46,030 nucleotides of DNA. It comes from Thermodesulfobacteriota bacterium (lineage in GTDB: Bacteria; Desulfobacterota_D; UBA1144; Nemesobacterales; CSP1-2). The notes beneath the pieces are model-generated. The model had not been told where the DNA came from and ran no database searches. It was given only the letters and a program-made list of their open reading frames with translations. Location: the NCBI GenBank assembly GCA_036397855.1, contig DASWID010000012.1, positions 1-46,030 of the forward strand, written 5' to 3'. This document shows, in pieces, positions 1 to 34,504 of the stretch. Within the stretch, counting starts at the first letter, position 1, and the number at the start of each line of letters is the position of its first letter. The position numbers and the translations under genes are program-made.

Positions 1-2742
<2,742 letters not shown>

Positions 2743-2806
2743 CTGCAAGGCATGAAAAACCTTACATTCTAAAACGCGCCTTGATCTACTCAGCACAATA
2801 TTCAAT

Positions 2807-2819
2807 TGTCAAAGAACAT
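2807..2819 (-). promoter_or_regulatory. boxA-like antitermination element in tRNA-Ala/23S spacer
   Basis: The reverse complement contains TGTTCTTTGACAAT, close to the TGYTCTTTGA boxA sequence bound by NusB/NusE in rRNA transcripts. It lies about 65 nt upstream of the 23S 5' end, the usual place for the spacer boxA. A second boxA is in the 16S leader at 4961-4971. Confidence 0.7.
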
Positions 2820-2853
2820 TTGCGGCTCTATTGCCGCACAACAAATTTAATTT

Positions 2854-2920
2854 GCCACGAATAAACACGAATAAATTCAAAGTAAAGTATTCGTGAAAAA
2901 TTTGTGTTAATTCGTGGTGC
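2854..2920. repeat. CCACGAAT inverted repeat in tRNA-Ala/23S spacer
   Basis: Arms GCCACGAATAAACACGAAT (2854-2872) and TTTGTGTTAATTCGTGG (2901-2917) are an imperfect inverted repeat around an AT-rich loop. The unit 'TTCGTGTTAATTCGTGG' resembles a repeat seen between genes in many environmental genomes (from memory). It would form a stem in the precursor rRNA between the boxA and tRNA-Ala. Confidence 0.65.
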
Positions 2921-2926
2921 CTTAAA

Positions 2927-3000
2927 TGGAGGTGAGCGGAATTGAACCGCCGACCTCCTGCTTGCAAAGCAGGCGCTCTCCCAAACTGAGCTACACCCCC
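2927..3000 (-). tRNA. tRNA-Ala (anticodon UGC)
   Basis: The reverse complement folds as a 74-nt cloverleaf: acceptor GGGGGTG/CACCTCC, D stem GCTC/GAGC, anticodon loop TTTGCAA with anticodon TGC, five-base variable loop, T arm with TTCAATT loop and discriminator A. The 3' CCA is not encoded (TTTA follows), unlike the neighbouring tRNA-Ile. Its position in the 16S-23S spacer is canonical. Confidence 0.97.
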
Positions 3001-3011
3001 AATTCTATGAA

Positions 3012-3068
3012 TTCCAAATCACAAATCCAAAATCCCAATCTTGAAATTTGGTGCTTGAAATTTGGTAC
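3012..3068. repeat. short-period repeats in tRNA-Ile/tRNA-Ala spacer
   Basis: The roughly 75-bp spacer is almost entirely repetitive. 3014-3036 is a run of degenerate 7-mers (CCAAATC, ACAAATC, CAAAATC), and 3041-3068 is a tandem pair of a 14-mer TTGAAATTTGGTGC / TTGAAATTTGGTAC. Both are low-complexity units typical of intergenic DNA rather than of a mature RNA. Confidence 0.7.
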
Positions 3069-3075
3069 TTAATAA

Positions 3076-3152
3076 TGGTGGGCCTAGGTGGAGTCGAACC
3101 ACCGACCTCACCCTTATCAGGGGTACGCTCTAGCCTGCTGAGCTATAGGCCC
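3076..3152 (-). tRNA. tRNA-Ile (anticodon GAU)
   Basis: The reverse complement is a 77-nt cloverleaf: acceptor GGGCCTA/TAGGCCC, D stem GCTC/GAGC, anticodon loop CTGATAA with anticodon GAT, T loop TTCGACT, discriminator A and a genome-encoded CCA. The Ile-Ala pair in the 16S-23S spacer is the common bacterial arrangement. Confidence 0.97.
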
Positions 3153-3168
3153 AGAATTAAACTATGCC

Positions 3169-3233
3169 GGATACAGGATACACGATGCATGCTTTATCTT
3201 TATCCTATATCATGCATCTTGCGTCCTGCATCC
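3169..3233. repeat. heptameric repeat forming a hairpin in 16S/tRNA-Ile spacer
   Basis: Left arm 3169-3191 (units GGATACA GGATACA CGATGCA TG) and right arm 3211-3233 (CATGCAT CTTGCGT CCTGCAT CC) are 23-nt inverted repeats with about four mismatches and a 19-nt loop. Each arm has 7-bp periodicity. It is the same family as 22893-22947, 36093-36129, 38934-38994 and 39964-39994. Confidence 0.75.
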
Positions 3234-3317
3234 ATTATATCAAGGTCTGGCTTAAGAGCACCATATATATAGCAGACACAGCAGAACTGAATAAACACTA
3301 GCAAGGTAACTCCGTGT

Positions 3318-4907
<1,590 letters not shown>

Positions 4908-4960
4908 CTCATTAATCTACTGCTAGCGTATATTCGCCCGCATGTGTCTGCTATTAAATT

Positions 4961-4971
4961 TTCAAAGAACT
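4961..4971 (-). promoter_or_regulatory. boxA of the 16S leader
   Basis: The reverse complement reads AGTTCTTTGAAAATT, matching the rRNA antitermination boxA core. It lies about 55 nt upstream of the 16S 5' end and about 50 nt downstream of the proposed promoter, where a leader boxA is expected. Confidence 0.75.
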
Positions 4972-5011
4972 AATCAATTTATCAATAATTATTAATTGAT
5001 TTAAGTCAAGA

Positions 5012-5046
5012 GATATGTATTATACAAAATGAAAACTACTTGTCAA
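5012..5046 (-). promoter_or_regulatory. sigma70-type rRNA promoter
   Basis: On the minus strand a perfect -35 TTGACA (5041-5046) is followed by a 16-bp spacer and a perfect -10 TATAAT (5019-5024), which puts the transcription start near 5012, about 105 nt upstream of mature 16S. A second TTGACT at 5004-5009 could be the -35 of a tandem promoter, but its -10 is weak. Confidence 0.8.
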
Positions 5047-5292
5047 TAAAGAAATACTAAATGAAAAATATTTTGAATCAACTGGTCTCAAGTCGCCAAA
5101 GATCAGCCAGAAAATTTACGTATTTTTGATCAAAATATTCATCTATATTAATATAAGCATAAAGTGAGTGAATAAAACTACGATTTATCATGATACGATG
5201 AGAGACATCATTAAACTTTATTTTATTACCACTTATCCAAAACCAATTATACCCATGCTTAGGGACATCCTAGAGAGTAATTTTTAGTACAA
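5047..5292. other. AT-rich divergent intergenic region
   Basis: This stretch lies between the rRNA promoter (reading left) and the glycosyltransferase gene (reading right). It is AT-rich with no convincing ORF, RNA gene or strong stem-loop. It presumably holds the promoter of the rightward gene, but I see no clear -35/-10 pair. Confidence 0.5.
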
Positions 5293-6471
5293 ATGAAGGT
5301 CCTGATATATACACATGAGTTCCCCCCATTTCTTGGAGGTCTAGCTAAAACAAGTTTTAAGCTAGCAAGCGGTTTTTCTGAGGGAGGTTTAGAAGTAACT
5401 GTCTTAGCCCCACGTTATTCAGATATGGATAATGAGGTTGACATTGAATGTAAATTCCAGATAAAAAGAATGACAGGTCTATCCAGAAACCATGGTATAC
5501 CTTCGCCTTTGCCAGAAGCGGCCGGCATTTATTCACTATACACCGCGATGAGAAAGTATCGGCCAGATGCTCTGTTGGTTATCACCAGGGAGGGACAAAC
5601 TTCAGGAGGACTTCTACGTGATTATCCCTTGAAGGTAATTGTGAGAGTCGCGGGCTATGAAGCATATCGATATCTTCTTGGTAAAAAATTTTATAACAGA
5701 CTGCTCGGAAAACCTATAAAAAGACTTTATATGAAAGCATCGACAATCGTTAGCCCTAGCCAATCTACCAGAGAACTATTGGAATTAGCGGGAATACCCA
5801 GGGATAAGATCGAGGTGATCTATAATGGTGTCAGCGACGATATGTTATCTCACAAACCAGACACTGATGCCCTGAAGAAGCTGAGAGCCAAGTTTAATTT
5901 GAAAAATGAGGATAAATTAATCCTAACCGTTTCGAGGCTGGTCCCCTCAAAAGGACATAAAGAAGTTATAAGAATCCTACCTCGGTTACTCAAGGAATTT
6001 GAAAACTTAAAATACCTGATTGTGGGAGAAGGGGGATACGAAACAGAGTTAAGAAATTTAGCATCTGAGGAAGGTGTTATCTCGAGTGTAATTTTTGCAG
6101 GTCCCGTGACATATAATGATGTCAAAGATTATCTTGATCTCTGTTACTTATTTGCAATGCCAAACACCTCTAATGAAGAAAAAGAAAGTATCGAAGGATT
6201 GCCTAACGTGATCTTTGAAGCTATGGCAAGGGGAAGGCCAGTAATTACAGGAACTGAGGGAGGGGCAAAAGAAATAGTTGAGCATGGCGTAAATGGATTC
6301 GTGGAAGATGGTAATAATATAGACGCAATTTATGAGCATATTTTAGACCTCCTCAAGAACGAAAAAAAGGCGAAAGATTTTGGTGAAAACTCACGAAGGA
6401 AAATAGCAGAGGGTTATACTGAAGCCAAAATGATTCAGAACTACTTAAAAATCATTTATGATCAACGATAA
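5293..6471 (+). CDS. GT4-family glycosyltransferase
   Basis: A 392-residue GT-B fold glycosyltransferase, probably transferring a sugar from a nucleotide-sugar donor onto a lipid- or glycan-linked acceptor on the cytoplasmic face. The N-terminal Rossmann domain starts MKVLIYTHEFPPFLGGLAK with the glycine-rich acceptor loop typical of GT4. The C-terminal donor domain has SRLVPSKGHKEVI (about residue 215), GEGGYE, and the FEAMARGRPVI...EGGAKEIVEHGVNGF signature (about 310-340) that places the catalytic Glu and sugar-nucleotide contacts. Length is normal. The gene is divergent from the rRNA operon and convergent with the asparagine synthase, so it is transcribed alone. Specific donor and acceptor cannot be read from sequence. 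No clear Shine-Dalgarno precedes the ATG. Confidence 0.9.
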   Translation: MKVLIYTHEFPPFLGGLAKTSFKLASGFSEGGLEVTVLAPRYSDMDNEVDIECKFQIKRMTGLSRNHGIPSPLPEAAGIYSLYTAMRKYRPDALLVITREGQTSGGLLRDYPLKVIVRVAGYEAYRYLLGKKFYNRLLGKPIKRLYMKASTIVSPSQSTRELLELAGIPRDKIEVIYNGVSDDMLSHKPDTDALKKLRAKFNLKNEDKLILTVSRLVPSKGHKEVIRILPRLLKEFENLKYLIVGEGGYETELRNLASEEGVISSVIFAGPVTYNDVKDYLDLCYLFAMPNTSNEEKESIEGLPNVIFEAMARGRPVITGTEGGAKEIVEHGVNGFVEDGNNIDAIYEHILDLLKNEKKAKDFGENSRRKIAEGYTEAKMIQNYLKIIYDQR

Positions 6472-6588
6472 ATCTACTGAAAATCAACTGTGCTGCTGAT
6501 CTACGCTAAAAGAATGCCAGAAATTAAACCAATCTTAGGGCTAGCACTATTTCTAGAAGTAATTTGACCAATCTACTTCGATACTTGC

Positions 6589-8520
6589 CTATGTCCATTT
6601 TTCCTTCCACATTTGAAAAACTAGCAAGAACCATATTTTATTGACATTTATAGAAACACCGCTATAGAAATCCTTAATATAGGATGAAACCACCTCCGAG
6701 TTAAATATCCCCTCTCTTCGTAACCTGTCCTCATTCAAATACTCCTTTACAACCTGATGTAGTTCACCCTTTAGCCACCTTGATAAAGGTGCCACAAAAC
6801 CCTGTTTAGGCCTTTCTATTAATTCTCTTGGAATGTGTTTATATAGAACTTTCCTCAAAATATACTTGCTTGTACCTTCATGATACTTGAATTTCAATGG
6901 TACACGTGCTACAAACTCTAGCAACCTATGATCCAAGAATGGCTCCCTTCCCTCAAGGCTTACACTCATCGTGGCCCTATCAACCTTTGTCAGGATATCG
7001 TCTGGGAGATACGTCTTGAAGTCTAATGCCATTACCTTATTTAATAATTCATTGTTAGGCATTGATTCGATTGTGTCAACATAAGCTGCGTCGTATGAGT
7101 AGTTATATTTATAGTCAATAATGCCTCCTAGTTCCTCCGTGGTCCATTTACTTAGGTTGCACTTGTACATCTCGATAAGATTTCCATTGTTGGACTCGAT
7201 TAGCATATCTCTCCATTTTATATACTTATCCTTTATCTCTTTAACCTCTGGCATAACTGCCTGAAAAGTTCTATAAAAATCGTCAACCCTGGAGGGATTT
7301 AGGCTTGTCATTGATTTAATGACGGAATTAGTCAAGAATTTGGGCAGTCTTAAAAACTTTTCGTATAATCGCACATAGGCCTTATATCTCGAATATCCAC
7401 AAAAAAGCTCATCTCCACCATCTGCTGATAGAGCAACAGTTACATCTTTTCTCGCGAGTTGAGATACTAAGTATGTAGGAATTACAGAATGGTCACCAAG
7501 GGGTTCGTCATATATCTCGGGAATCTTGTAAATTATATTTGCAGCTTCCTCGACCGATAAATAGTACTCAGTATGATCGGTCCCAAGATAGCTTGCGATA
7601 CTTTTCGACCAATCAGCTTCGTTCAGACCGCTTTCATCAAAACCTATGGTAAAGGTCTTTAATTTACTTCCAATGTTATGTTGCAGTAATGCTGTTACTA
7701 TACTAGAGTCTAAACCACCGCTTAGAAAAACCCCAACGGGAACATCAGAAATGAGTCTATACTTGAAAGAATTCACTAAAAGATTTTCCAGCTCCAAGGT
7801 AATTTCCTCTTCAGTGCCCTCGATAGGATCCGCATTATAAAAATCAACTATATCCCAGTATTTTTTCTCAACTAATTTATTCTTATATAGACAAAGATAA
7901 TGGCCTGGCTTCAATTTAAACGTATCGTGAAAAATTGTATAGGGTGATTGAATAAAACCGAATCTCAGATAATGAGGCAGTATACTCAGATTGATTTCTT
8001 TCCTGAAATTCGGGTGTTTAATTAAAGCCTTTAATTCCGAAGCAAATAATAATATGCCATCTTTAAAAAAGTAATATAAAGGTTTGACCCCTACCCGGTC
8101 TCTAACCAGATATAGTTTTTGTTGATTCCGATCCCAGATTGCGAATGCAAACATTCCAATGAATTTATGCACACAATCTATTCCCCATTCCTCATATGCC
8201 TTAACTAAAACCTCCGTGTCGGTGTTGCTCTTGAAGGCATATCTTTTTTTCTCAAGCTCTTCCCTGATCTCCTTAAAGTTATAGACCTCTCCATTATATG
8301 TTATCCATACCGAACCGTTATCGTTCGACATTGGCTGATGGCCGAGCGAGGAAAGATCAAGAATCGACAACCTCGTGTGTGCCAAGCCGACATTATGCTC
8401 TTGATCAATGTATAAACCCGAATCGTCAGGTCCTCTATGAGCTAAGGTATCTCTCATCGATCTCAGTATCGACTCATCAGTACATTTATTTATACTACAA
8501 AATCCTACTATTCCGCACAC
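6589..8520 (-). CDS. asnB: Asparagine synthase (glutamine-hydrolysing), AsnB family
   Basis: A 643-residue two-domain amidotransferase. The N-terminal class II glutaminase has the nucleophile Cys2 right after the initiator (MCGIVGF), HRGPD at 28-32, R50, and the oxyanion NGE at 76-78. The C-terminal synthetase has the PPi-loop SGGLDSS at 267-273 and SADGGDELFCGY further on. The start is GTG at 8520, fixed by the need for Cys2 and preceded by AGGA. The family makes asparagine from Asp, ATP and Gln, but paralogues in polysaccharide clusters amidate other carboxylates, such as uronic acids. With glycosyltransferases on both sides, a role in amidating a sugar or peptide of a surface glycan is plausible, though plain asparagine synthesis cannot be excluded. 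Confidence 0.92.
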   Translation of the reverse strand: MCGIVGFCSINKCTDESILRSMRDTLAHRGPDDSGLYIDQEHNVGLAHTRLSILDLSSLGHQPMSNDNGSVWITYNGEVYNFKEIREELEKKRYAFKSNTDTEVLVKAYEEWGIDCVHKFIGMFAFAIWDRNQQKLYLVRDRVGVKPLYYFFKDGILLFASELKALIKHPNFRKEINLSILPHYLRFGFIQSPYTIFHDTFKLKPGHYLCLYKNKLVEKKYWDIVDFYNADPIEGTEEEITLELENLLVNSFKYRLISDVPVGVFLSGGLDSSIVTALLQHNIGSKLKTFTIGFDESGLNEADWSKSIASYLGTDHTEYYLSVEEAANIIYKIPEIYDEPLGDHSVIPTYLVSQLARKDVTVALSADGGDELFCGYSRYKAYVRLYEKFLRLPKFLTNSVIKSMTSLNPSRVDDFYRTFQAVMPEVKEIKDKYIKWRDMLIESNNGNLIEMYKCNLSKWTTEELGGIIDYKYNYSYDAAYVDTIESMPNNELLNKVMALDFKTYLPDDILTKVDRATMSVSLEGREPFLDHRLLEFVARVPLKFKYHEGTSKYILRKVLYKHIPRELIERPKQGFVAPLSRWLKGELHQVVKEYLNEDRLRREGIFNSEVVSSYIKDFYSGVSINVNKIWFLLVFQMWKEKWT

Positions 8521-8654: not shown

Positions 8655-9809
8655 TTAGAATCCATCTAAACCATTTAGTATTTTTTTTACCCTTTCCTCC
8701 CATGTGTAATTCTTTACGTCGGAAGCGGATTGGAGGGATATTTTTTCAGCAAGAGCTTCATCTTCTAACACCCTCTTAATACCTTCAAATAAAGAATCAG
8801 CACTATCGGGACCGACTAATAAGGCATTTATTTTATCACTAAGTATTTCAGAGATAGCGGGGAGATTTGTCGCAACTATTGGGCGGCATGATGCCATAAA
8901 CTCAAACAGTTTTAAGGGAGAAGTAAACCCAATAGCGTTCGTTCCATCCTGGATTGTCATGTCAGATGTATAGGGTATCACCAGTGCGTCAGCAGAGAAA
9001 AGGTACAGAGGTACAATATTGTGTGGAACAAAACCAACAAACTTAAAGTTCTCTAACTTCTTTTCATTAGCTATGTCTCTATAGATATTAATATCACTCT
9101 CAAGTCCTCCGACTATCAAAAAAAGCACATCTTGAAGCCTGCTTGAAACCCTGATCAGCAGATCGATACCCCGTCCCCTATACATGTTTCCAGAGTAGCA
9201 AACAATTTTTTTATTTACGGGAAGATTAAGTTTCTTGCGAGCTTCCGACTTTGAGGGAATATTTTGGAATTGTTCTAAATCTACGCCATTATGGGCAACA
9301 ACCAGCTTTTCGTCCGGGAGACCCAACTGAGAGTATATTTTCCCTAAGCCCCTAGAGTTTGTTGAGAATCTTACTAAATATTCCGATTTCTTGAACATGT
9401 TAAATGCGAATCTTGCAGGTCCATTCACCAGTGGATGATGGGCATCATAAATTGTTGGTATTCTAAAGAATTGGGTGGAAAGATAAGTAAAAATGATATT
9501 CCTAGTAAGTACTAAATTGTACTTCTGTTTATTGAGCCATACATAAAATGAACTATAGGTACCGTGTATAAAATGCCTTAAAGAGCCGTTAGTAGAGGGG
9601 ATTGTAGTTATTACATTGAAAATTGGTTCAACACCATAACACTTAAAAATATCAAATTTTGAATCATAAGACTGAAGTATAAGATCGACATTAATTCCCA
9701 GCCGAGCAATAGCCTGGCACATTTTCATCACATGTATAGGACTTGCTCCCCTTAGAAAAAGCTCAGGACTACCGACATATGCAACTCTTAACCGCGTTTT
9801 ATCTTTCAA
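8655..9809 (-). CDS. GT4-family glycosyltransferase
   Basis: A 384-residue GT-B glycosyltransferase. Near the N-terminus RVAYVGSPELFLRGASPIH matches the acceptor-side Rossmann start. The donor half shows VCYSGNMYRGRGIDLLI (about 208) and FTSPLKLFEFMASCRPIVATNLP, the GT4 EFMA...P signature. It lies 134 bp upstream of asnB in the same direction, so the two may be cotranscribed. The open frame begins with TTG (9809) and no good ribosome site is visible, so the start is uncertain by a few codons. It is distinct from the 5293-6471 enzyme, so the cluster could add at least two sugars. Substrates are unknown. Confidence 0.88.
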   Translation of the reverse strand: MKDKTRLRVAYVGSPELFLRGASPIHVMKMCQAIARLGINVDLILQSYDSKFDIFKCYGVEPIFNVITTIPSTNGSLRHFIHGTYSSFYVWLNKQKYNLVLTRNIIFTYLSTQFFRIPTIYDAHHPLVNGPARFAFNMFKKSEYLVRFSTNSRGLGKIYSQLGLPDEKLVVAHNGVDLEQFQNIPSKSEARKKLNLPVNKKIVCYSGNMYRGRGIDLLIRVSSRLQDVLFLIVGGLESDINIYRDIANEKKLENFKFVGFVPHNIVPLYLFSADALVIPYTSDMTIQDGTNAIGFTSPLKLFEFMASCRPIVATNLPAISEILSDKINALLVGPDSADSLFEGIKRVLEDEALAEKISLQSASDVKNYTWEERVKKILNGLDGF

Positions 9810-10093
9810 CTTTGCAGTAAATACTCGAAGAATAAACTATATATCAAACCAGTATAAGCTTTTAATTAATGACAAACATTTAATATACTATTAGGGGATT
9901 TATTATAACTGAAGAATATGATTTATTTTAAGTTCTGGCATAGGACTTTCCGATAAAAATTACACCGGTGGATTTGTATAATGATAAAGACATGTCCTTT
10001 TTATATGAATTGTAAGCATGTATTGAAATCGTTGCTCAACTCAGTCGAAAAAAACAACTATAGATCATACATATAGGGCATGAAGAATGGTGG
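9810..10093. other. AT-rich intergenic region
   Basis: This 284-bp AT-rich stretch lies between the permease gene and the downstream glycosyltransferase, both on the minus strand. I see no ORF with coding character, no RNA gene and no strong terminator hairpin. It probably holds the promoter of the glycosyltransferase. Confidence 0.4.
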
Positions 10094-11308
10094 TTATCCA
10101 TACCTAAGTGATTCGATCGGATCCAACTGAGAGGCTTTTCTTGCCGGGTATATACCAAAAAATATCCCCACTATTGCAGCAAAACAAAAAGATAAGATAA
10201 TTGAAGTTGCTGAAACAACCGATGGCCAATTTGTGAATGATGATGAAATTATTGATCCCAATATCCCTAAAATTATCCCTATGAACCCACCAACTACCGA
10301 TAGTAATACAGCCTCAATCATAAACTGGATCAGTATATCCCACTGCTTAGCTCCAACAGCCATTCTAATCCCAATCTCCCTTGTCCTTTCTTTCACAGAT
10401 ACAAGCATGATGTTCATTATTCCAATTCCACCTACTACGAGAGATATTGAAGCAATGCTCCCAAGAAGGATTGTCATTATCTTTGAAACGGTAAAGATTC
10501 TTTCTATATGAACGAGTTGGGTATTTACGTAGAAATCATCTTCCAAATCATCTGCAATCTTTCGTCGATCCCTTAAAATTTGCGTTATCTGCTCCTGTGC
10601 TATGGGAACATCTTCAGTTGAGTTCACTGAAACTGATATATTTTCTATATAAGAAATGCCCATTATTCTTTTCTGAACGGTTGTATAAGGGATAATTACC
10701 AGATCATCCTGATCCTCACCACTAGGGGTCTGCCCGATAGGGCTCATCACTCCAATTACTCTATAAGAGAAGCCCCCTAATCTTATTATCTTTCCTGTAG
10801 GATCCTGATTACCAAATAACTTTGATGCGACTGTAGTGCCTATGACACACACTAATTCAGCATTTTTTACGTCTTCATCATTAAAAAAACTCCCCCTTTC
10901 GGGGAACCAGTCGTTGATATAGGTAAATTCCTGGGATACACCTACTATTGTAGTGAACCAGTTCATGTTACCGGAGGCTATTTGTTCCGCTGTATCAATT
11001 ATCTCCGACACGTGTTTGACAATGCTCAGACCTCTAATTGCATCGGCGTCACTGGCCATTAATGGCTTTTCCTTGTTTAGATTCAGCGTGGTACCACTCC
11101 TTGCTCTTTTCCCCGCATTAACAATTAGCGAATTGCCACCTAGACCTGTTAAATTTTCCTCTATCATGAGTTTTGCACCTTGCGTAAGAGCCATCATAGT
11201 TATTACAGCAGCAACCCCTATGATGATACCTATAGTAGTAAGGATTGAGCGAACTTTGTAACTTCTTAATGCCTTGTAAGCAATTTTAGATGCAACCCAT
11301 AGACTCAT
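10094..11308 (-). CDS. MacB/FtsX-type ABC transporter permease without adjacent ATPase
   Basis: A 404-residue integral membrane protein. It has an N-terminal segment followed by TM1 (about 20-42, ILTTIGIIIGVAAVITMM), a large MacB periplasmic core domain (about 45-270), and three C-terminal TM helices within the FtsX domain (SKIMTILLGSIASISLVVGGIGIMNIMLVSVKERTREIGIRMAVGA). Type VII ABC transporters of this kind do not move substrate through the membrane. They transmit ATP-driven motion to the periplasm, exporting lipoproteins, peptides or glycolipids with an outer-membrane partner or activating hydrolases. The matching ATPase, normally next door, and a MacA-like adaptor are both absent here. 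The gene sits between two asparagine-synthase-like genes in the same orientation, so it may serve the same surface product. Full length, with an ATG start. Confidence 0.9.
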   Translation of the reverse strand: MSLWVASKIAYKALRSYKVRSILTTIGIIIGVAAVITMMALTQGAKLMIEENLTGLGGNSLIVNAGKRARSGTTLNLNKEKPLMASDADAIRGLSIVKHVSEIIDTAEQIASGNMNWFTTIVGVSQEFTYINDWFPERGSFFNDEDVKNAELVCVIGTTVASKLFGNQDPTGKIIRLGGFSYRVIGVMSPIGQTPSGEDQDDLVIIPYTTVQKRIMGISYIENISVSVNSTEDVPIAQEQITQILRDRRKIADDLEDDFYVNTQLVHIERIFTVSKIMTILLGSIASISLVVGGIGIMNIMLVSVKERTREIGIRMAVGAKQWDILIQFMIEAVLLSVVGGFIGIILGILGSIISSSFTNWPSVVSATSIILSFCFAAIVGIFFGIYPARKASQLDPIESLRYG

Positions 11309-11432
11309 AACAATTCTTTATCAATTAAAGTATATCGATTCTTTCTAACTCTAACCCAGCACCGATTCAATCAATTGAATATCGATAATCCAGTCCTTGC
11401 AATCTATTTAAGGATTTTTATCCATCACAATC

Positions 11433-13157
11433 TCAATTACCATTACTCAAATATCTCTTCTCCCAAATCTTGAACACAAGAAGGGAAAATAATTTTCTGT
11501 CCTGATTTAACAAATGACTTGAATGAAGACGCAGAAGTTTTTTTATATAACTCCTCTTAAAAAATTTTTCCTCGCCACCGAGCAGTATATCCGTTACGTG
11601 TTCTCCCCATTCATTTCTAATCCACTTAGCTAAGGGTGGATTAAGGCCTCGCTTCCTGTTTAAAGGAAATTCAGGGGGGAGAAACTTGGCCGCAAGTTTC
11701 TTTAAAAGATATTTTGTTACCCCCCCTCTAATCTTCATATTCCCTGGTACCTCGGTAAAAGCAAACTCTATAAGTTTCGTGTCCAGAAATGGAGCTCGCA
11801 CGCTGATCGAAAAATTCCTACAAATCTTTTCGATCTTTGGGAGAGAATCATTAGCGGTGTCAATGAGTTCTAGATATGTCAGGATGCCAGTCAGTGAATC
11901 TGTGTTTGGTAGATCTTGCCTATCGGGATCATATAATTTGTTTCCAAGCTCATCCAATACCCAATCTTGGAATAACCTTTCTCTCAGCGGGGTACTAAAA
12001 ACTGTCTCCCTCTTTGAATAGAAATCAATCGGTGATAAATTCTCCAGAAAGATTCGCCACTTAGCTTCTTCGGGTATAAGTTTGACGATATTTCTCAAAA
12101 CCATATCGAAAGGCGGCACGACAAACTTGTTAATCCTCATATTTCTAATAACCTGGGAATGGGTCCTCATTCCAGTAAAAAGGCTGTCTGCCCCATCGCC
12201 TGTCATAACTGCATCAACGCTTTCTCCGGCAATCTTACAGCCATAATATGTTGGGATGATAGATGGATCACCAATTGGTTCATCGAAAAGAAAGACAGAC
12301 GCAAGAAAATCATCAAAATTTGGCCCGACGAGAACTTCTTTATGGTCTGTATTAAAATAATTCGCAATCAGTCGAGAATAAGGCAACTCGCTATATTTAT
12401 CTTCATTGAACCCGACACTAAAGGTCTTCACGCGGATTGGGGAAATCCTGTTCATTAAGGCCACGATCAAGCTAGAATCGACTCCACCACTAAGGAATGT
12501 ACCCAAAGAATTTTCGCCTTTCATTCTTAATTTTAAGCTATCGATCAGTATTTCCTCGAGCCTCTCTAGAAGTTTAGCTTCGTTCCCTTTTTCAGGTTCA
12601 AAAGTAGGAGGCTCCCAATATCTTCTTGTTTCAAGCATTCCAGACTTTAAATCGAACCTGAGTACCGCACCCGGAAGAAGCTTCTTTATATTTTTGAAGA
12701 TGCAAAGTTCATCGGGAATATTACGTGAAGCAATAAAGTGGTTTAATGCTGTTAAATCAATCTCTCTATGAAACTGCGGTGTTTCAATTATTGAATCAAC
12801 TTGCGATGAAAAAATAAATTTTCCATCATGATTTGTATAATAAAGGAATTTCTCACCCACCGGGTCTCTTGCTATAAATAAAATTCCTTTCTCTTTATCA
12901 TAGATACAAAAGGAAAAAGCACCGTTAAATTTCCTCACACACTCTTCTCCCCATTCCGTGTAAGCACAAGCAACGAGCTCTGAATCAGTTCCACTCTTAA
13001 ATCTACAGCCCCTTTTTTCTAAGGTAACGACAAGTTCTTTATAATTATAAATTTCACCCTGGTATGTAACACTTATAGAATCTTTTCGCCCCGCCAATAA
13101 TTCCTCGTCATTTAGAATTACGTTTTCCCCATCGTAAATGCCAAATATCTTACTCAT
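11433..13157 (-). CDS. Asparagine-synthase-like protein with inactivated glutaminase domain
   Basis: A 574-residue AsnB homologue counted from the ATG at 13157; a TTG two codons earlier is possible. The N-terminus reads MSKIFGI where active enzymes read MCGIVGI, so the Ntn nucleophile Cys2 is Ser. About 43 residues that normally hold the HRGPD motif are missing, and the oxyanion NGE is QGE (33-35). The synthetase half looks intact: GTFLSGGVDSS (PPi loop, 223-229) and MTGDGADSLFTG. So ATP-dependent acyl-adenylate chemistry is probably kept, while glutamine hydrolysis is lost. Beta-lactam synthetase is a known AsnB relative with this pattern, using an internal amine instead of ammonia. The enzyme may use free ammonia, an amine acceptor, or ammonia from a partner such as the 6589-8520 enzyme. 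It lies 124 bp upstream of the permease gene. Confidence 0.85.
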   Translation of the reverse strand: MSKIFGIYDGENVILNDEELLAGRKDSISVTYQGEIYNYKELVVTLEKRGCRFKSGTDSELVACAYTEWGEECVRKFNGAFSFCIYDKEKGILFIARDPVGEKFLYYTNHDGKFIFSSQVDSIIETPQFHREIDLTALNHFIASRNIPDELCIFKNIKKLLPGAVLRFDLKSGMLETRRYWEPPTFEPEKGNEAKLLERLEEILIDSLKLRMKGENSLGTFLSGGVDSSLIVALMNRISPIRVKTFSVGFNEDKYSELPYSRLIANYFNTDHKEVLVGPNFDDFLASVFLFDEPIGDPSIIPTYYGCKIAGESVDAVMTGDGADSLFTGMRTHSQVIRNMRINKFVVPPFDMVLRNIVKLIPEEAKWRIFLENLSPIDFYSKRETVFSTPLRERLFQDWVLDELGNKLYDPDRQDLPNTDSLTGILTYLELIDTANDSLPKIEKICRNFSISVRAPFLDTKLIEFAFTEVPGNMKIRGGVTKYLLKKLAAKFLPPEFPLNRKRGLNPPLAKWIRNEWGEHVTDILLGGEEKFFKRSYIKKLLRLHSSHLLNQDRKLFSLLVFKIWEKRYLSNGN

Positions 13158-13163
13158 GAGCAA

Positions 13164-13629
13164 GTATTATGAATCAATCAGTCGCATTTACAACCTCATT
13201 ATTGTCGTATGACTGGAATAATCGTTGGTGAGAAACCACCAGTTAATGGTCAGCGATGTTACCATTCATTCTGTTAATTCTTGAGGGACGGGGTTAAAAG
13301 ACCGTCTAATGTTTATGGAATTTGGAAAAAGTGAACTTATCTGGATGAACGTAATAATCAAATAAGCAAAGCCTGACCCGAGTCCCTCACTTTATTTTAC
13401 GGAATTCTCTAAGTCCAGCTGACATAGAAAATACGATGTTTGTCTTTAAAAAAAACAGGCTCACGCCTTTTTCCACGTTGAGTGATATGGTGTGGTAAGT
13501 CAGCAAATACGGTTCTTGCAACCCTGGGCATATACATAAAGTCTAGCATCATATACATCCTTAAAGGGTAGCGTCCCCTTTAATTCCGCGTAAAAAATGG
13601 CTTTGTATTTCCTATAGATATAAAGCGGG
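13164..13629. other. intergenic region with weak inverted repeat
   Basis: No ORF with coding character is visible in this 466-bp stretch. The imperfect inverted repeat GAGGGACGGGGT (13283-13294) / ACCCGAGTCCCTC (13376-13388) spans 106 bp and could be a small non-autonomous element. The remainder is AT-rich and unremarkable. Confidence 0.35.
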
Positions 13630-14906
13630 CTATGGGCTCCGCGGAGGAGGTTGGTTCACCTGCACCTGACCCTGCACATTGACGATCCGCTGGCTCACCC
13701 AACCGCGAAGGCCAGTGAAGAGGGCGGCAGCCGCCTCCTCGCTGTCGAACCCCGCATACGGATCTTCCACGAGTGCCGACGTGACCGCCGCCTCCACGCC
13801 GTTCAGGAAGTTGTGAAGTGCCGTCTCGGAGAGCGGGCCGGTCATCGGATCGAGGAGACCCATCATGATTGCATTATACTGCGTGCGAAACGTCGGATGG
13901 CTGAGGATCACGCGCTGGTATTCCGTCTGACTGAACCCCTTCCGCACCTGCTTTGCGTAGATGTTCGCCCCGACGTCGGTGATCGCACCGTCAAGGTCCC
14001 ACATCAAATACAGCCGTCTGCGCTCGGGGAACAGGTCCGTGTTGAAGTCGATGTGCCGGAAGTTCTTGCCGTGGGTGAACAGCGCGTCGCCGTTCGAGGA
14101 GAAGGCATCAACGGTCCCCTGCGTAGCATGATCTGCATGTCGATGAGATCGGGCAGCTCCGTCCCCAGCGTGACGTCGTCCGGCGTGGGGCATGGCGGGT
14201 TCTTCTTGGTGCCGACGGTGAAGGGCGCGTAGCAGAGCGCCGTCCATGCTGGGCTGTGGGGGAGGTCGCCGTCCTCGAGTTCGAAGGACCCGGCGCCGAG
14301 ATCGTCGATCTCGTAGAGCCACGAACGTCTCACTCCCTCCGAAGTAGTCCCCCTGGGAAGAGCGCGGTTGCGAAGGAACTGGCTGTCCCGCTCCTCCACA
14401 TTGATGTACACGCCGACGTACTGGCCGTTGATGACGAGACGCACCCAGGCCGCAAGACCAGCGTGGTAGTCGCTCGGGTAGAAGCCCGGTCCGGTTGCCA
14501 TTTCGTGCAGATTCCAGGCGAGGCCCTCGGAGACTGGATCGGTGTCAGCGCCGTTCTCGAGGCTCAGCTTAGTCAGGCTACGCCACCGCTGCCCGCTGAC
14601 GAACTCGTTGATGTCCACCTTGTACCCCACCTTGATCGGGTCAGCCTCGGACGGCAGGGCACGGCTCGACTTGCGGCGCACAGAGACGAGGAGCTTGGCA
14701 TCTTCCTCTCCATTTGCCCAGAAGAGCGCAGGCACCTCGATTTCGTTCGTGGTGTCATGGCGGATGGTGTCCCAGTCGGTCTGCTCCATCTCTAGATTGA
14801 GCGTGAGGACCTGAAACGGGTTGAAGACATCCACCCAGGTCTGAGCCCAGGCGGGCACAGGAGCGATAAGACTGAGCGCGATGAGCAGAATCGCTAGATA
14901 GCGCAT
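13630..14906 (-). pseudogene. CotH-kinase-like secreted protein, frameshifted and GC-rich
   Basis: Two overlapping frames together make one CotH-type protein of about 425 residues. The first begins MRYLAILLIALSLIAPVPA, a clear Sec signal peptide, and continues through VYINVEERDSQFL. The second continues FRHIDFNTDLF and LYLMWDLDGAI, the 'WDLD' region of CotH-like atypical kinases, to the stop at 13630. The frames join if one G is added to the GGGG run at 14116-14119 (CCCC on the plus strand), so it is either a one-base deletion or a sequencing error. GC is about 60 % in sampled lines against 35-40 % around it, which points to recent transfer. GGAGG precedes the ATG. CotH phosphorylates spore-coat proteins in Bacillus and phosphorylates or decorates secreted proteins elsewhere; the target here is unknown. 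Confidence 0.8.
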
Positions 14907-14936
14907 AACTTGTCCTCCCTCTCAAAAAATAAGTAG

Positions 14937-14952
14937 ACTGCAAAAATGCAGT
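14937..14952. promoter_or_regulatory. ACTGCA-AAAA-TGCAGT palindrome upstream of cotH-like gene
   Basis: A perfect 6-bp-arm inverted repeat lies about 30 bp upstream of the start codon, and a further TACTGCAAA half-site is at about 14977-14985. Spaced copies of the same half-site next to a start codon could be an operator. The position is seen directly; a regulatory role is inference. Confidence 0.35.
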
Positions 14953-15145
14953 ATAATCAACTGCTAAGGGTATTGTACTGCAAATATTTTAATATCCGTA
15001 CTATAACAAATCTGATTTTATGTCAAGGGAACGAGTTAGATCATAATTAGAATTCCTCGAAATTGGGCTTCGTATCTCCTGATTATTTTAGGTTCAGGCG
15101 ATCGGAGGTACTAGTATCATATGAGTTGATATGAATAATGAATAA

Positions 15146-15398
15146 GGGGTCAAACTTTATGGCACGTCCACCCTACAAAACAGTGGCTATCTACTACAAA
15201 CCGAGCCGCTACCTCATTTAATGTGGGATCGCATAGCCTCTCCAATACATACATTCCGAACAGGGCAATATTTTCTGTTGAGTGAACCCATTGTTCATGA
15301 CATGATAATAAGCTCCTGGACATTGAATTCTTCGCGGGCGAGACATTTAATAGAAGTTTAGATAAAGATGATAATTAGTCAACAAAAGATTTGACCCC
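15146..15398. mobile_element. possible remnant of a REP-associated (Y1) transposon
   Basis: A perfect 9-bp inverted repeat GGGGTCAAA (15146-15154) / TTTGACCCC (15390-15398) bounds 253 bp. Just inside the left end the sequence reads ATGGCACGTCC, which resembles the start (MARP-) of IS200/RAYT-type TnpA genes, elements often bordered by GGGGTCA...TGACCCC. No transposase frame survives, so at most this is a decayed or internally deleted copy. Confidence 0.4.
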
Positions 15399-15426
15399 TG
15401 ACTTTTTTTAAGTAGTTTAAATTATT

Positions 15427-15546
15427 TTATTTTTGTTCTTCTACCCTTCTATTTTTTAAATCAACATTGATACTTTTCTCATCAAGATCTTCCTCTTTCT
15501 TGCCATCTTTCTTTTTTTCATTATCAATTAAAAGATAACTGGAGGA
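15427..15546 (-). pseudogene. 39-codon 3' fragment of a lost gene
   Basis: A minus-strand frame ends at TAA 15427-15429 and encodes a strongly charged tail (…DNEKKKDGKKEEDLDEK…NRRVEEQK). It has no ATG, and its 5' end coincides with the palindrome at 15541-15558, which brings an in-frame TAG. It looks like the C-terminus of a gene whose 5' part was lost or replaced at a repeat. It could also be chance in AT-rich DNA. Confidence 0.35.
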
Positions 15547-15558
15547 CTAAAGTCCTCC
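15541..15558. repeat. GGAGGACTAAAGTCCTCC stem-loop
   Basis: A perfect inverted repeat followed by GCTACA. Read on the minus strand it is TGTAGC + GGAGGACTTTAGTCCTCC, a TGTAG-headed stem-loop like those at 24071, 30932, 31123 and 41553. Confidence 0.7.
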
Positions 15559-15683
15559 GCTACATGTGTATTCACTGCTGGAAACCGATCCTACGATCAA
15601 TCCGTCTGCCTCCCCTTTACCAAAGGAGAGAAGCAAATGACACCTCGTGGGAATTGCTTTGCGGGAGCGTAATTGGTGGAAGG

Positions 15684-15865
15684 AGGAGATTGCTTCGTCC
15701 CAGATCCTGAATCTAATTCAGGACTGGTTTCTCGCAATGACACTTTCGTGGATTCGCGATTACGCTTGTGCCCGAATCCTTCAATTCGGTATTCTTCGCG
15801 AATGACAGGCCGTGAGATTGCTTCGCAGGAGCCTGTACTGAGTGAGTCGAAGTGCTCAAATGACA
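15684..15865. repeat. composite dispersed repeat (GGAGATTGCTTCG...CGCAATGAC type)
   Basis: The left unit starts GGAGATTGCTTCG and ends CGCAATGAC (15684-15741), enclosing CCTGAAT-CTA-ATTCAGG. A second unit holds GGATTCGCG...TTCGCGAATGAC around CCGAAT-CCTTCA-ATTCGG (15772-15789). It is followed by another GAGATTGCTTCG (about 15812) and a degenerate ACTGAGTGAGTCGAAGT. A related element is at 18922-18961. The block lies immediately 5' of hisS, where an upstream in-frame extension of the hisS reading frame is repeat-derived rather than protein. Confidence 0.65.
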
Positions 15866-15916
15866 AGTTTTATAAATTTGAGCACTCTTATTCAGTGTGA
15901 TAGAATCCAAGCAATC

Positions 15917-17194
15917 ATGAAGGTCAGATCGATAAGGGGCTTTAATGACATACTGCCTGAGACGACGAAGAGATGGCATTTCATAGAGGAAGCGGCTAGA
16001 AAAACATTTGAGCTATATGGCTTTTCCGAAATAAGGACTCCTGTAGTTGAATTTACGGAAATATTTGCAAGGAGTATAGGAACAACAACTGATATAGTCG
16101 AAAAGGAGATGTATACATTTAAAGATAGAGATGGTTCATCTATCACACTTCGCCCAGAATGTACTGCCGGTGTCGTCAGGGCATTCATAGAGAATTCCGT
16201 ATATGCCAAGTCACCGATCGCAAAGTTCTACTACCTGGGCATGATGTTTAGACACGAAAGGCCCCAGAAGGGACGGTACAGAGGGTTTAATCAGATTGGT
16301 GCAGAATTATTTGGGACAAAGAACCCGTATGCAGATGCCGAAATAATTAATATGCTATGGGAGTTTCTCAAAACAATTGGAGTAATCGGCTTGCTCAGGC
16401 TTGAGATAAGCTCTCTGGGGGATGAAAATTGCCGGCCATTGTATATAAAAAAGCTAGTCGATTTCTTCAAACCACTGAGGAATGTCCTCTGTGAGAATTG
16501 TCAGAGGAGGCTTGAACTGAATCCACTGAGAATACTTGATTGCAAAGAAAAAAGATGCAAGGAAATTTCACGAGACGCTCCTTCAATGCTTGATAGTCTC
16601 TGCACCGAATGTACGGATCACTTTGAGCGAGTTAAAAGCTCTTTGGACGGCTTCGGTATTAATTTTGTAATAAACTCGAGGATCGTAAGGGGCCTCGACT
16701 ACTACACTCGCACCGTTTTCGAAATTACAACAGAAAAACTTGGCGCCCAAAATGCAGTAGCAGCAGGAGGTAGATATGACGGTCTTGTAGAAGAATTGGG
16801 CGGACCGCCAACACCTGCAATCGGGTTCTCGATAGGAATGGAAAGATTAGTATCGCTACACGAGCTGATAGCTCCAGAAGGGTTTCAAAAAGAAGTGGAT
16901 GTCTTCATTGCCTTCATAGGCGAGAAAACAAAAAACCCGGCGTTTCAATTAGCATATAACCTGAGGAAGCAAGGTGTATCGGTAGAAATGGACTATGAAA
17001 ACAAAAGCCTCAAGGGCCAGCTCAAGAGGGCAGATAAACTTGGTGCTAAATTCACGGTAATTGTAGGAGAAGAAGAGCTAGGAAGGGGCAAAGTAAAGTT
17101 AAGAAATATGAAAGTAAGCCTCGAGGAGGAAATCGATATAGGGGATGTGACAGAATTGGAAACAAAGATTAAAACACAATTCAATCATCAATAA
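15917..17194 (+). CDS. hisS: Histidyl-tRNA synthetase
   Basis: A 425-residue class II aminoacyl-tRNA synthetase that charges tRNA-His. The start is taken at ATG 15917 (MKVRSIRGFNDILPETTKRW), the standard HisRS N-terminus; 25 further upstream codons are open but derive from a repeat. Motif 2 is seen as FRHERPQKGRYRGFNQIGAE, the HisA motif as RGLDYYTRTVFE, and AAGGRYDGL precedes motif 3 GFSIGMERL. The C-terminal anticodon-binding domain (about 330-425) is present. Length is normal. An insertion with several Cys (CENCQRR...CKEKRC...CTEC, about 198-238) could bind a metal, as in some HisRS subfamilies. The 3' end overlaps the convergent sixA gene by 7 bp. No clear Shine-Dalgarno. Confidence 0.97.
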   Translation: MKVRSIRGFNDILPETTKRWHFIEEAARKTFELYGFSEIRTPVVEFTEIFARSIGTTTDIVEKEMYTFKDRDGSSITLRPECTAGVVRAFIENSVYAKSPIAKFYYLGMMFRHERPQKGRYRGFNQIGAELFGTKNPYADAEIINMLWEFLKTIGVIGLLRLEISSLGDENCRPLYIKKLVDFFKPLRNVLCENCQRRLELNPLRILDCKEKRCKEISRDAPSMLDSLCTECTDHFERVKSSLDGFGINFVINSRIVRGLDYYTRTVFEITTEKLGAQNAVAAGGRYDGLVEELGGPPTPAIGFSIGMERLVSLHELIAPEGFQKEVDVFIAFIGEKTKNPAFQLAYNLRKQGVSVEMDYENKSLKGQLKRADKLGAKFTVIVGEEELGRGKVKLRNMKVSLEEEIDIGDVTELETKIKTQFNHQ

Positions 17195-33851: not shown

Positions 33852-34504
33852 CTGACAATCTCTCGGGCCTTCTCCTTTCTGTCATTTGCAATAACAATTT
33901 CTTCCATAATGCTCATCCCTTCCTCTTCCATTTCCGCCGTGATCTCTCCAGCTTTTCCAGAAGTGTATTTGTAAGCTATAAAAGCTGGTATAGCAACCAA
34001 AAGCCCAAGGGCAGTCGTGTAAAGCGCCTCCGAAATGCCCCCTGCCAGGCTTGGAGGATTTACAATTGGTTGTTCGGCAATAACCCTAAATATCTTTATC
34101 ATTCCGGATATCGTTCCCAGTAGACCCAATAGTGTGCTGACATTACTAATAGCACCGAGACCCTCGATATATCTGTAGAGATCAGTCGCCTCTTTTCTAC
34201 CAGACTCCTCGATTTTTTCCTTCAGTTCATCTTTGGGTCTATCAAAATACTCAAGTGCGGTGGAAGCTATTCTTGCAATGGGCGAATCATTTGCCCTTGA
34301 TAACACCCTAGCATCACCAAATTTGGCCTGGGAGATTAACTCATAAAGGGTGCTCAAAAACTGTTCGGGAATTATTTTTTTTGGTCTTAGAACCCAAATC
34401 TTTTGAAGTAAAATCGCCAGGCCCACTACTGAGCAAAGCATTATGGGATACATAAAGAATCCGCCCTTTCTAATAAACTCAAAAAAACTACTCTCCCATA
34501 TCAT
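33848..34504 (-). CDS. exbB: ExbB/TolQ-family proton channel protein
   Basis: A 218-residue MotA/TolQ/ExbB proton channel protein with three TM helices: about 18-38 (GGFFMYPIMLCSVVGLAILLQ), then two near the C-terminus. SNVSTLLGLLGTISGMIKIF and ISEALYTTALGLLVAIPAFIAYKYT are the family core. I start it at ATG 34504 because GGAGG (34510-34514) sits 5 bases upstream; ten further upstream codons are open but lack a ribosome site. It pairs with exbD by a 4-bp overlap. Confidence 0.92.
   Translation of the reverse strand: MIWESSFFEFIRKGGFFMYPIMLCSVVGLAILLQKIWVLRPKKIIPEQFLSTLYELISQAKFGDARVLSRANDSPIARIASTALEYFDRPKDELKEKIEESGRKEATDLYRYIEGLGAISNVSTLLGLLGTISGMIKIFRVIAEQPIVNPPSLAGGISEALYTTALGLLVAIPAFIAYKYTSGKAGEITAEMEEEGMSIMEEIVIANDRKEKAREIVR

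Follow-up and report, generated by a model that had tools for sequence, protein, structure and literature searches.

Results and discussion

A truncated AsnB-family gene without a glutaminase site

What can an enzyme built on the asparagine synthetase B (AsnB) scaffold do once it can no longer draw ammonia from glutamine? This question is raised by a gene at positions 11433-13157 of the stretch of DNA analyzed here (46,030 nucleotides; hereafter, the window), which is the complete contig C12 of a 3.1-Mb genome (95.65% complete). The gene lies on the minus strand, as do the other window features below unless stated otherwise, and sequence reading, Pfam, and an AlphaFold2 model identify its 574-aa product as a truncated AsnB-family protein (TRUNC). 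The Pfam scan returned a full Asn_synthase domain (219.9 bits) and a GATase_7 domain (106.3 bits) that begins at profile position 21. An earlier note on this DNA had described a lost Cys2, a deletion of about 43 residues that removes the HRGPD block, NGE changed to QGE, and an intact PPi-loop, and all four can be read directly. From the ATG at 13157, residue 2 is Ser and not Cys; the HRGPD segment of the complete AsnB paralogue at 6589-8520 has no counterpart, and the RLSI segment is also missing; QGE stands at residues 33-35 (13053-13061), where the complete paralogue has NGE at residues 76-78, i.e., 43 residues further along; and the PPi-loop SGGVDSS is present at residues 223-229 (12471-12491). 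Among the glutamine-binding residues, the equivalents of Cys1, Arg49, and Asn74 are missing and the window copy keeps Asp58 only. In the other half of the protein, EPIGD replaces VTTIR of E. coli AsnB, a segment with a role in aspartate binding.

An upstream frame that might restore Cys2 and HRGPD, considered in the earlier note, was looked for and rejected. The reading frame cannot extend in the 5' direction, with a stop two codons before a TTG at 13163, and when N-terminal sequences of complete AsnBs served as tblastn queries for the DNA upstream of the gene at five related loci, no HRGPD remnant came up at any of them, while the control recovered the complete paralogue at 3e-44. The weak upstream matches (best E 0.002) fell either within the truncated gene or on the other strand of a GC-rich region. 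Judged by its sequence, TRUNC retains the part of the enzyme that uses ATP and is without the part for releasing ammonia from glutamine.

A conserved family, likely restricted to one phylum

A search for relatives found four further truncated proteins at 41-52% identity, so that truncated copies occur in 5 of 57 genomes of the phylum (that of the window, G022, G006, G003, and G007) and in three families. The G022 copy is intact (573 aa) and the G006 copy is split across two contigs; in G003, one inserted T causes a frameshift, and in G007 there is a frameshift near the N-terminus, the other frame reading MNVFFG...DGEIYN. Cys2 and the HRGPD segment are missing from all five, and the NGE site reads QGE in the window, EGE in G022, G006, and G003, and DGE in G007. 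When a profile of the five copies was run over the 57 genomes, which represent 57 species of one class and include an order whose genomes are about 1 Mb in size, the truncated copies scored 740-1030 bits and other matches 406 bits at most. The truncated copies formed one clade (SH-aLRT 100, long stem of 1.07) that did not fall among the complete AsnBs encoded in these genomes, in a quick tree search in which the placement of other degenerate paralogues, on long branches, is unsure; L027 and L177 (no loop motif found) and a 611-aa protein of contig C93 were left out of this tree.

Comparison of the G006 and G003 copies gave a dN/dS of 0.17 over the first 436 codons (dN 0.029, dS 0.172) and about 0.66 over the last 181 codons (dN 0.067, dS 0.101), compared with 0.11 for the neighboring sulfotransferase gene and 0.073 for the neighboring MFP gene. 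Most of the protein is clearly constrained, and the rest weakly so. Overall, the truncated protein is a conserved family and not a one-off case of decay.

This family is likely restricted to the phylum. A scan of 84,980 genomes with one protein returned five relatives, which were ordinary AsnBs wherever an N-terminus was available (L033 stops short of it), and viral contigs scanned with the truncated profile gave 32 pattern matches and no relatives. In a sample of another phylum, 1 of 396 genomes had a match at E up to 1e-135, which was a complete AsnB, and in two further phyla none of 395 and none of 398 genomes matched at E up to 1e-125; because scoring in these samples was limited to three candidates per genome, and the last two phyla had no positive control, we grade the restriction as likely rather than proven. 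The literature on degenerate-glutaminase AsnB proteins and on AsnB genes in glycan loci, mostly open access, did not reveal the truncated family in titles or abstract openings.

Residues kept and lost in the synthetase half

Having established the family, we compared its residues with those of competent enzymes in an alignment of 58 proteins, of which 51 rows carry the glutaminase residues and 43 pass a strict filter. All columns at least 96% conserved in the 43 strictly competent rows were scanned, and the eight complete rows omitted by the filter were included when invariance was counted at three key positions (human Glu368, Tyr373, and Glu414). Conservation of the glutaminase site in the viral rows follows from their having been collected by HRGPD and NGE patterns, a selection from which the synthetase positions are free. 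Human residue numbers come from phmmer alignments and an offset of 16 to E. coli, with 373 and 409 placed by the offset alone.

The synthetase half has 16 conserved positions, 10 of which are unchanged in all truncated copies that extend over them: S223, G224, G225, D227, S228, G322, D324, R454, P456, and K502. These include the PPi-loop, the Asp of position 351 (Asp324), and Lys502 (11652-11654), the equivalent of the catalytic Lys449 of E. coli or Lys466 of human asparagine synthetase (ASNS). Three of the lost positions are invariant in all 51 competent rows, namely Glu352 (human Glu368; S, G, G, G, G in the truncated copies), Tyr357 (human Tyr373; M, F, F, F, F), and Glu398 (human Glu414; S, R, cut, E, N), the last being altered in three of the four copies with coverage there and still Glu in G007. 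Further changes affect a Val at 316 (A, S, S, S, T), the equivalent of human Asp405 (E, H, cut, D, D), position 409, where competent rows have Met (R, R, cut, S, R in the truncated copies), and, in the N-terminal domain, the tunnel position of human Val119 (Met in competent rows), which is Ala in four of four covering copies. In the window, the first of the three key losses falls within TGDGADS (residues 319-325; 12183-12203), and the Glu414 equivalent is Ser452 within residues 441-454 (KIEKICRNFSISVR; 11796-11837), where Arg454 preserves human Arg416. The earlier note had asked for the aspartate-binding residues to be checked and had allowed that synthetase residues might prove lost on alignment, and the outcome is mixed on both counts: Asp321 (position 348, Asp or Glu in all truncated copies) and Asp324 are present and the PPi-loop and catalytic Lys are kept, but the Glu368 position is Ser or Gly in all five copies and the Tyr373 and Glu414 equivalents are also affected.

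The roles of these positions are known from the human enzyme. PMC6748925 calls Glu414 absolutely conserved and places it within 5 Å of the glutamine pocket, and it describes Glu364, Asp367, and Glu368 as binding the protonated amino group; in the window this cluster reads Asp321, Asp324, and Ser325 and is incomplete. PMC11615228 describes Asp405, Glu414, Asn74, and Glu76 as a network around the tunnel gate Arg142, with Val119 pointing into the tunnel. Given these roles, the parts that feed ammonia and one part that recognizes an amino acid substrate are gone, while the acyl-adenylate core is kept; on the synthetase side, the residues associated with the glutamine pocket and the tunnel are lost in concert. 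Two proteins of one genome (G000) with broken glutaminase sites are altered at the same three positions, reading S, M, and R (contig C24; L057:5211-6989) and G, T, and I (the 611-aa protein of contig C93; L056:4940-6775). Both lie in glycan loci.

Comparison with known enzymes on the AsnB scaffold

The AlphaFold2 model (58 alignment rows; pLDDT 93.7, pTM 0.92) is confident over nearly all 574 residues. Its best structural match was the hydroxyamidotransferase TsnB9 (7YLZ, named by its entry title; Z 32.4, rmsd 2.8, 502 aligned residues), followed by E. coli AsnB (1CT9; Z 29.9), human ASNS (6GQ3; 28.8-29.1), beta-lactam synthetase (28.4), and carbapenam synthetase (27.1). With Z differences below 1 counted as ties, the scores are so close that fold hardly separates AsnB from beta-lactam synthetase. 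TRUNC has the whole fold, the PPi-loop, and the catalytic Lys in common with the E. coli and human enzymes, but not their Cys1, HRGPD block, or tunnel and gate residues.

Beta-lactam synthetase (1JGT) and carbapenam synthetase (1Q15) have retained the Ntn domain and lost the glutaminase site, as has TRUNC. The former has Ile352, Met357, and Trp394 at the Glu368, Tyr373, and Glu414 positions, so that all three are changed in both proteins, and both keep the position-351 Asp and the Lys. However, Tyr348 of beta-lactam synthetase, which belongs to a Tyr-Glu dyad, corresponds to Asp in the window copy, identity with 1JGT and 1Q15 is only ~18-20%, and TRUNC is encoded in a glycan locus. Since Asp or Glu replaces this Tyr, TRUNC was rejected as a beta-lactam synthetase proper.

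Lasso peptide cyclases offer another comparison. A lasso-cyclase-like protein of G012 also has a degenerate glutaminase site and has Q, E, and D at the Glu368, Tyr373, and Glu414 positions lost in TRUNC, but TRUNC scores 164.8 bits against a cut-off of 525 with the lasso cyclase model NF033535. PqqD and Transglut_core3 are the usual lasso B1/B2 domains; neither was found among the seven window proteins scanned (5.3-14.9 kb), and genes for both lie within a few kb of the G012 gene. The G012 locus itself (L206, G012:C1:26000-34015, positions 655-7872) resembles a lasso peptide cluster, with Transglut_core3, PqqD, an AsnB-like cyclase without Cys2, and an NTP_transf_5 protein.

The best NCBIfam match of TRUNC was the WbpS type (eps_aminotran_1, TIGR03108; 347.9 bits), whose cut-off of 816.9 was not reached; the complete paralogue, at 589.2 bits, also falls below it. 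TRUNC and this WbpS-like paralogue have a DEPxxDxSxxPTY stretch in common, and, as for the WbpS type, the truncated gene is found in surface-glycan loci with a Wzx-type gene. Unlike WbpS-type enzymes, TRUNC is without a glutaminase site and has lost the Glu368, Tyr373, and Glu414 equivalents. WbpS, a complete relative, makes a uronamide in Porphyromonas gingivalis (PMC7468200).

Genome context

The surface-glycan setting suggested by the earlier note was borne out by the Wzx-type, GT4, and sulfotransferase neighbors of truncated genes, though its account of the genes needs amending, as only one of the two GT4 genes is co-oriented. The glycosyltransferase gene GT4b (8655-9809), which 51 of the phylum's 57 genomes have, is co-oriented with TRUNC and with the complete AsnB (6589-8520; Cys2, HRGPD, and NGE present; WbpS/eps_aminotran-like by Pfam, NCBIfam, and sequence), but GT4a (5293-6471) is on the plus strand, and a MacB_PCD/FtsX permease gene without an ATPase domain (10094-11308), absent from the note, lies between GT4b and TRUNC. 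Such a permease gene is also near GT4b in several genomes of family f6. On the other side, hisS (15842-17194, plus strand) follows. GT4b is within 0.7 kb of hisS in 9 of the 20 GT4b loci examined, so the 6 kb between them in the window (9810-15841), which hold the permease gene, the TRUNC gene, and broken remnants, look like inserted cargo.

In one genus of family f6, the contents of a slot between GT4b/MacB and a Wzx-type gene vary by genome: a complete AsnB with GT4a in G015, other GT4 and methyltransferase genes in G024, one GT4 with unassigned genes in G011, and only the truncated gene in G022. Elsewhere, the truncated gene adjoins a sulfotransferase gene in G003 and G006 and a Wzx-type gene in G007 (with an FkbM methyltransferase gene nearby), and Wzx-type flippase genes are present at the truncated-gene loci of G007, G022, and G006. 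The truncated gene looks like cargo of variable surface-glycan loci, and its variable placement is the behavior of a glycan-decoration gene. A UDP-sugar dehydrogenase is encoded in all five genomes with truncated copies but discriminates nothing, since 54 of 57 genomes have one, and no dedicated amine-making gene beside the truncated gene was common to all loci examined. In G003, contig C29 carries GT4b, GT4a, and a Wzx-type gene as well as the C-terminal end of an AsnB-like frame (34196-34486) at the contig end, with 27% identity and one TGA.

A putative amide ligase of surface glycans

Our preferred reading, held at somewhat less than even confidence, is that TRUNC is a conserved, lineage-restricted, WbpS-like amide ligase of the AsnB family that would join a carboxylate to an amine instead of using glutamine nitrogen. 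TRUNC would bind ATP-Mg and activate a carboxylate as its adenylate, the most likely substrate being a uronic acid from a surface glycan or from its precursor; the acyl-AMP would then be attacked by an amine that enters directly (an amino acid, an amino sugar, or another), as in beta-lactam synthetase, and the substituted amide would be made before a Wzx-type protein flips the glycan. With the ammonia-freeing half lost and the ATP-using half kept, TRUNC probably joins something else to the sugar acid. The loss of the glutaminase site and the coupling residues, the retention of the core adenylation site, and the glycan context are read from the sequences themselves; the amine is suggested by analogy, and we consider it nearly, but not quite, an even call. 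The proposal of the earlier note, adenylation followed by a nucleophile other than glutamine-derived ammonia as in beta-lactam synthetase, holds up in its adenylation machinery, in the loss of the glutaminase in a conserved clade, and in the same three synthetase-side losses, but not in the Tyr348 residue, which is Asp here. Counting against our reading are this missing Tyr, the frameshifts in G003 and G007, the weak constraint on the last 181 codons, the Glu that G007 retains at the Glu414 position, and the want of an amine-making neighbor common to all loci. A more specific version is doubtful: TRUNC might be a glycan-dedicated, beta-lactam-synthetase-like uronic acid-amine ligase that represents an independent escape from glutamine on the AsnB scaffold, recognizable by the glutaminase site and residues 368, 373, and 414 having been lost together.

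In two other readings TRUNC would use ammonia. As an ammonia-dependent uronamide synthase it would carry out the same adenylation and take free NH3 from solution, giving a primary amide as WbpS does. Free ammonia is accepted by AsnB-type enzymes, as PMC13060819 states for PesC and the canonical ones; position 348 is acidic, like that of AsnB, and not the Tyr of beta-lactam synthetase; and the nearest characterized relatives make uronamides (PMC7468200). On the other hand, the loss of Glu368, Tyr373, and the tunnel position parallels enzymes with amine nucleophiles, and the window and G003 loci already hold a complete AsnB that could make a primary amide, so we judge free ammonia unlikely, and less likely than an amine. 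The paired step proposed in the earlier note, in which TRUNC would be a subunit receiving ammonia from the adjacent complete AsnB, draws on that same gene in the window locus and, two genes from the truncated gene, in G003. This pairing fared poorly and seems to us very improbable: three of the four copies that span the coupling residue facing the glutamine pocket have lost it, a complete AsnB is missing from the regions examined in G022 (18.0 kb) and G007 (12.0 kb), and the 57-genome survey gave neither of these genomes a further Asn_synthase match (E up to 1e-20).

Two further readings were weighed. TRUNC might be a decaying or non-catalytic paralogue (a pseudogene or a regulatory subunit), as the two frameshifted copies of five, the ratio of about 0.66 at the end of one pair, and the patchy occurrence in the phylum would allow; against this stand the PPi-loop, Asp324, and Lys502, kept in all covering copies across three families at 41-52% identity, the ratio of 0.17 over 436 codons, the intact frame of the window copy, and the confident model. 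We consider decay improbable, and because two copies are frameshifted we do not put it lower. That TRUNC is an ordinary asparagine synthetase, as automatic annotation would say given a TIGR01536 score of 294.5 bits in the window (cut-off 267.1), is scarcely credible to us: the Cys1, Arg49, and Asn74 equivalents are missing, VTTIR is replaced by EPIGD, and one of the three acidic residues described as binding the amino group (PMC6748925) is Ser or Gly. Model-based annotation would thus call TRUNC glutamine-hydrolyzing, which its sequence rules out.

If the joint loss of residues 368, 373, and 414 marks the end of tunnel ammonia use, amine-using relatives could be recognized by a simple sequence test in glycan loci and natural-product loci alike, and the loss would point to amide-linked substituents on bacterial surface glycans that have gone unrecognized. 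Such a signature could also find amine-using AsnB relatives that are misnamed as glutamine-hydrolyzing.

Other features of the window

Upstream of the TRUNC gene, a 40-aa frame (13412-13531) has no Pfam match and resembles the start of a REP-type transposase. Next to it, a CotH-type gene at 13630-14906 is divided between two overlapping frames of the minus strand, lies where GC reaches ~59% (~39-40% around it), and looks like a broken acquired gene. At the other end, positions 1-4905 hold a minus-strand rRNA operon with the 16S gene at 3319-4905, two tRNAs, and a 23S gene cut by the contig end.
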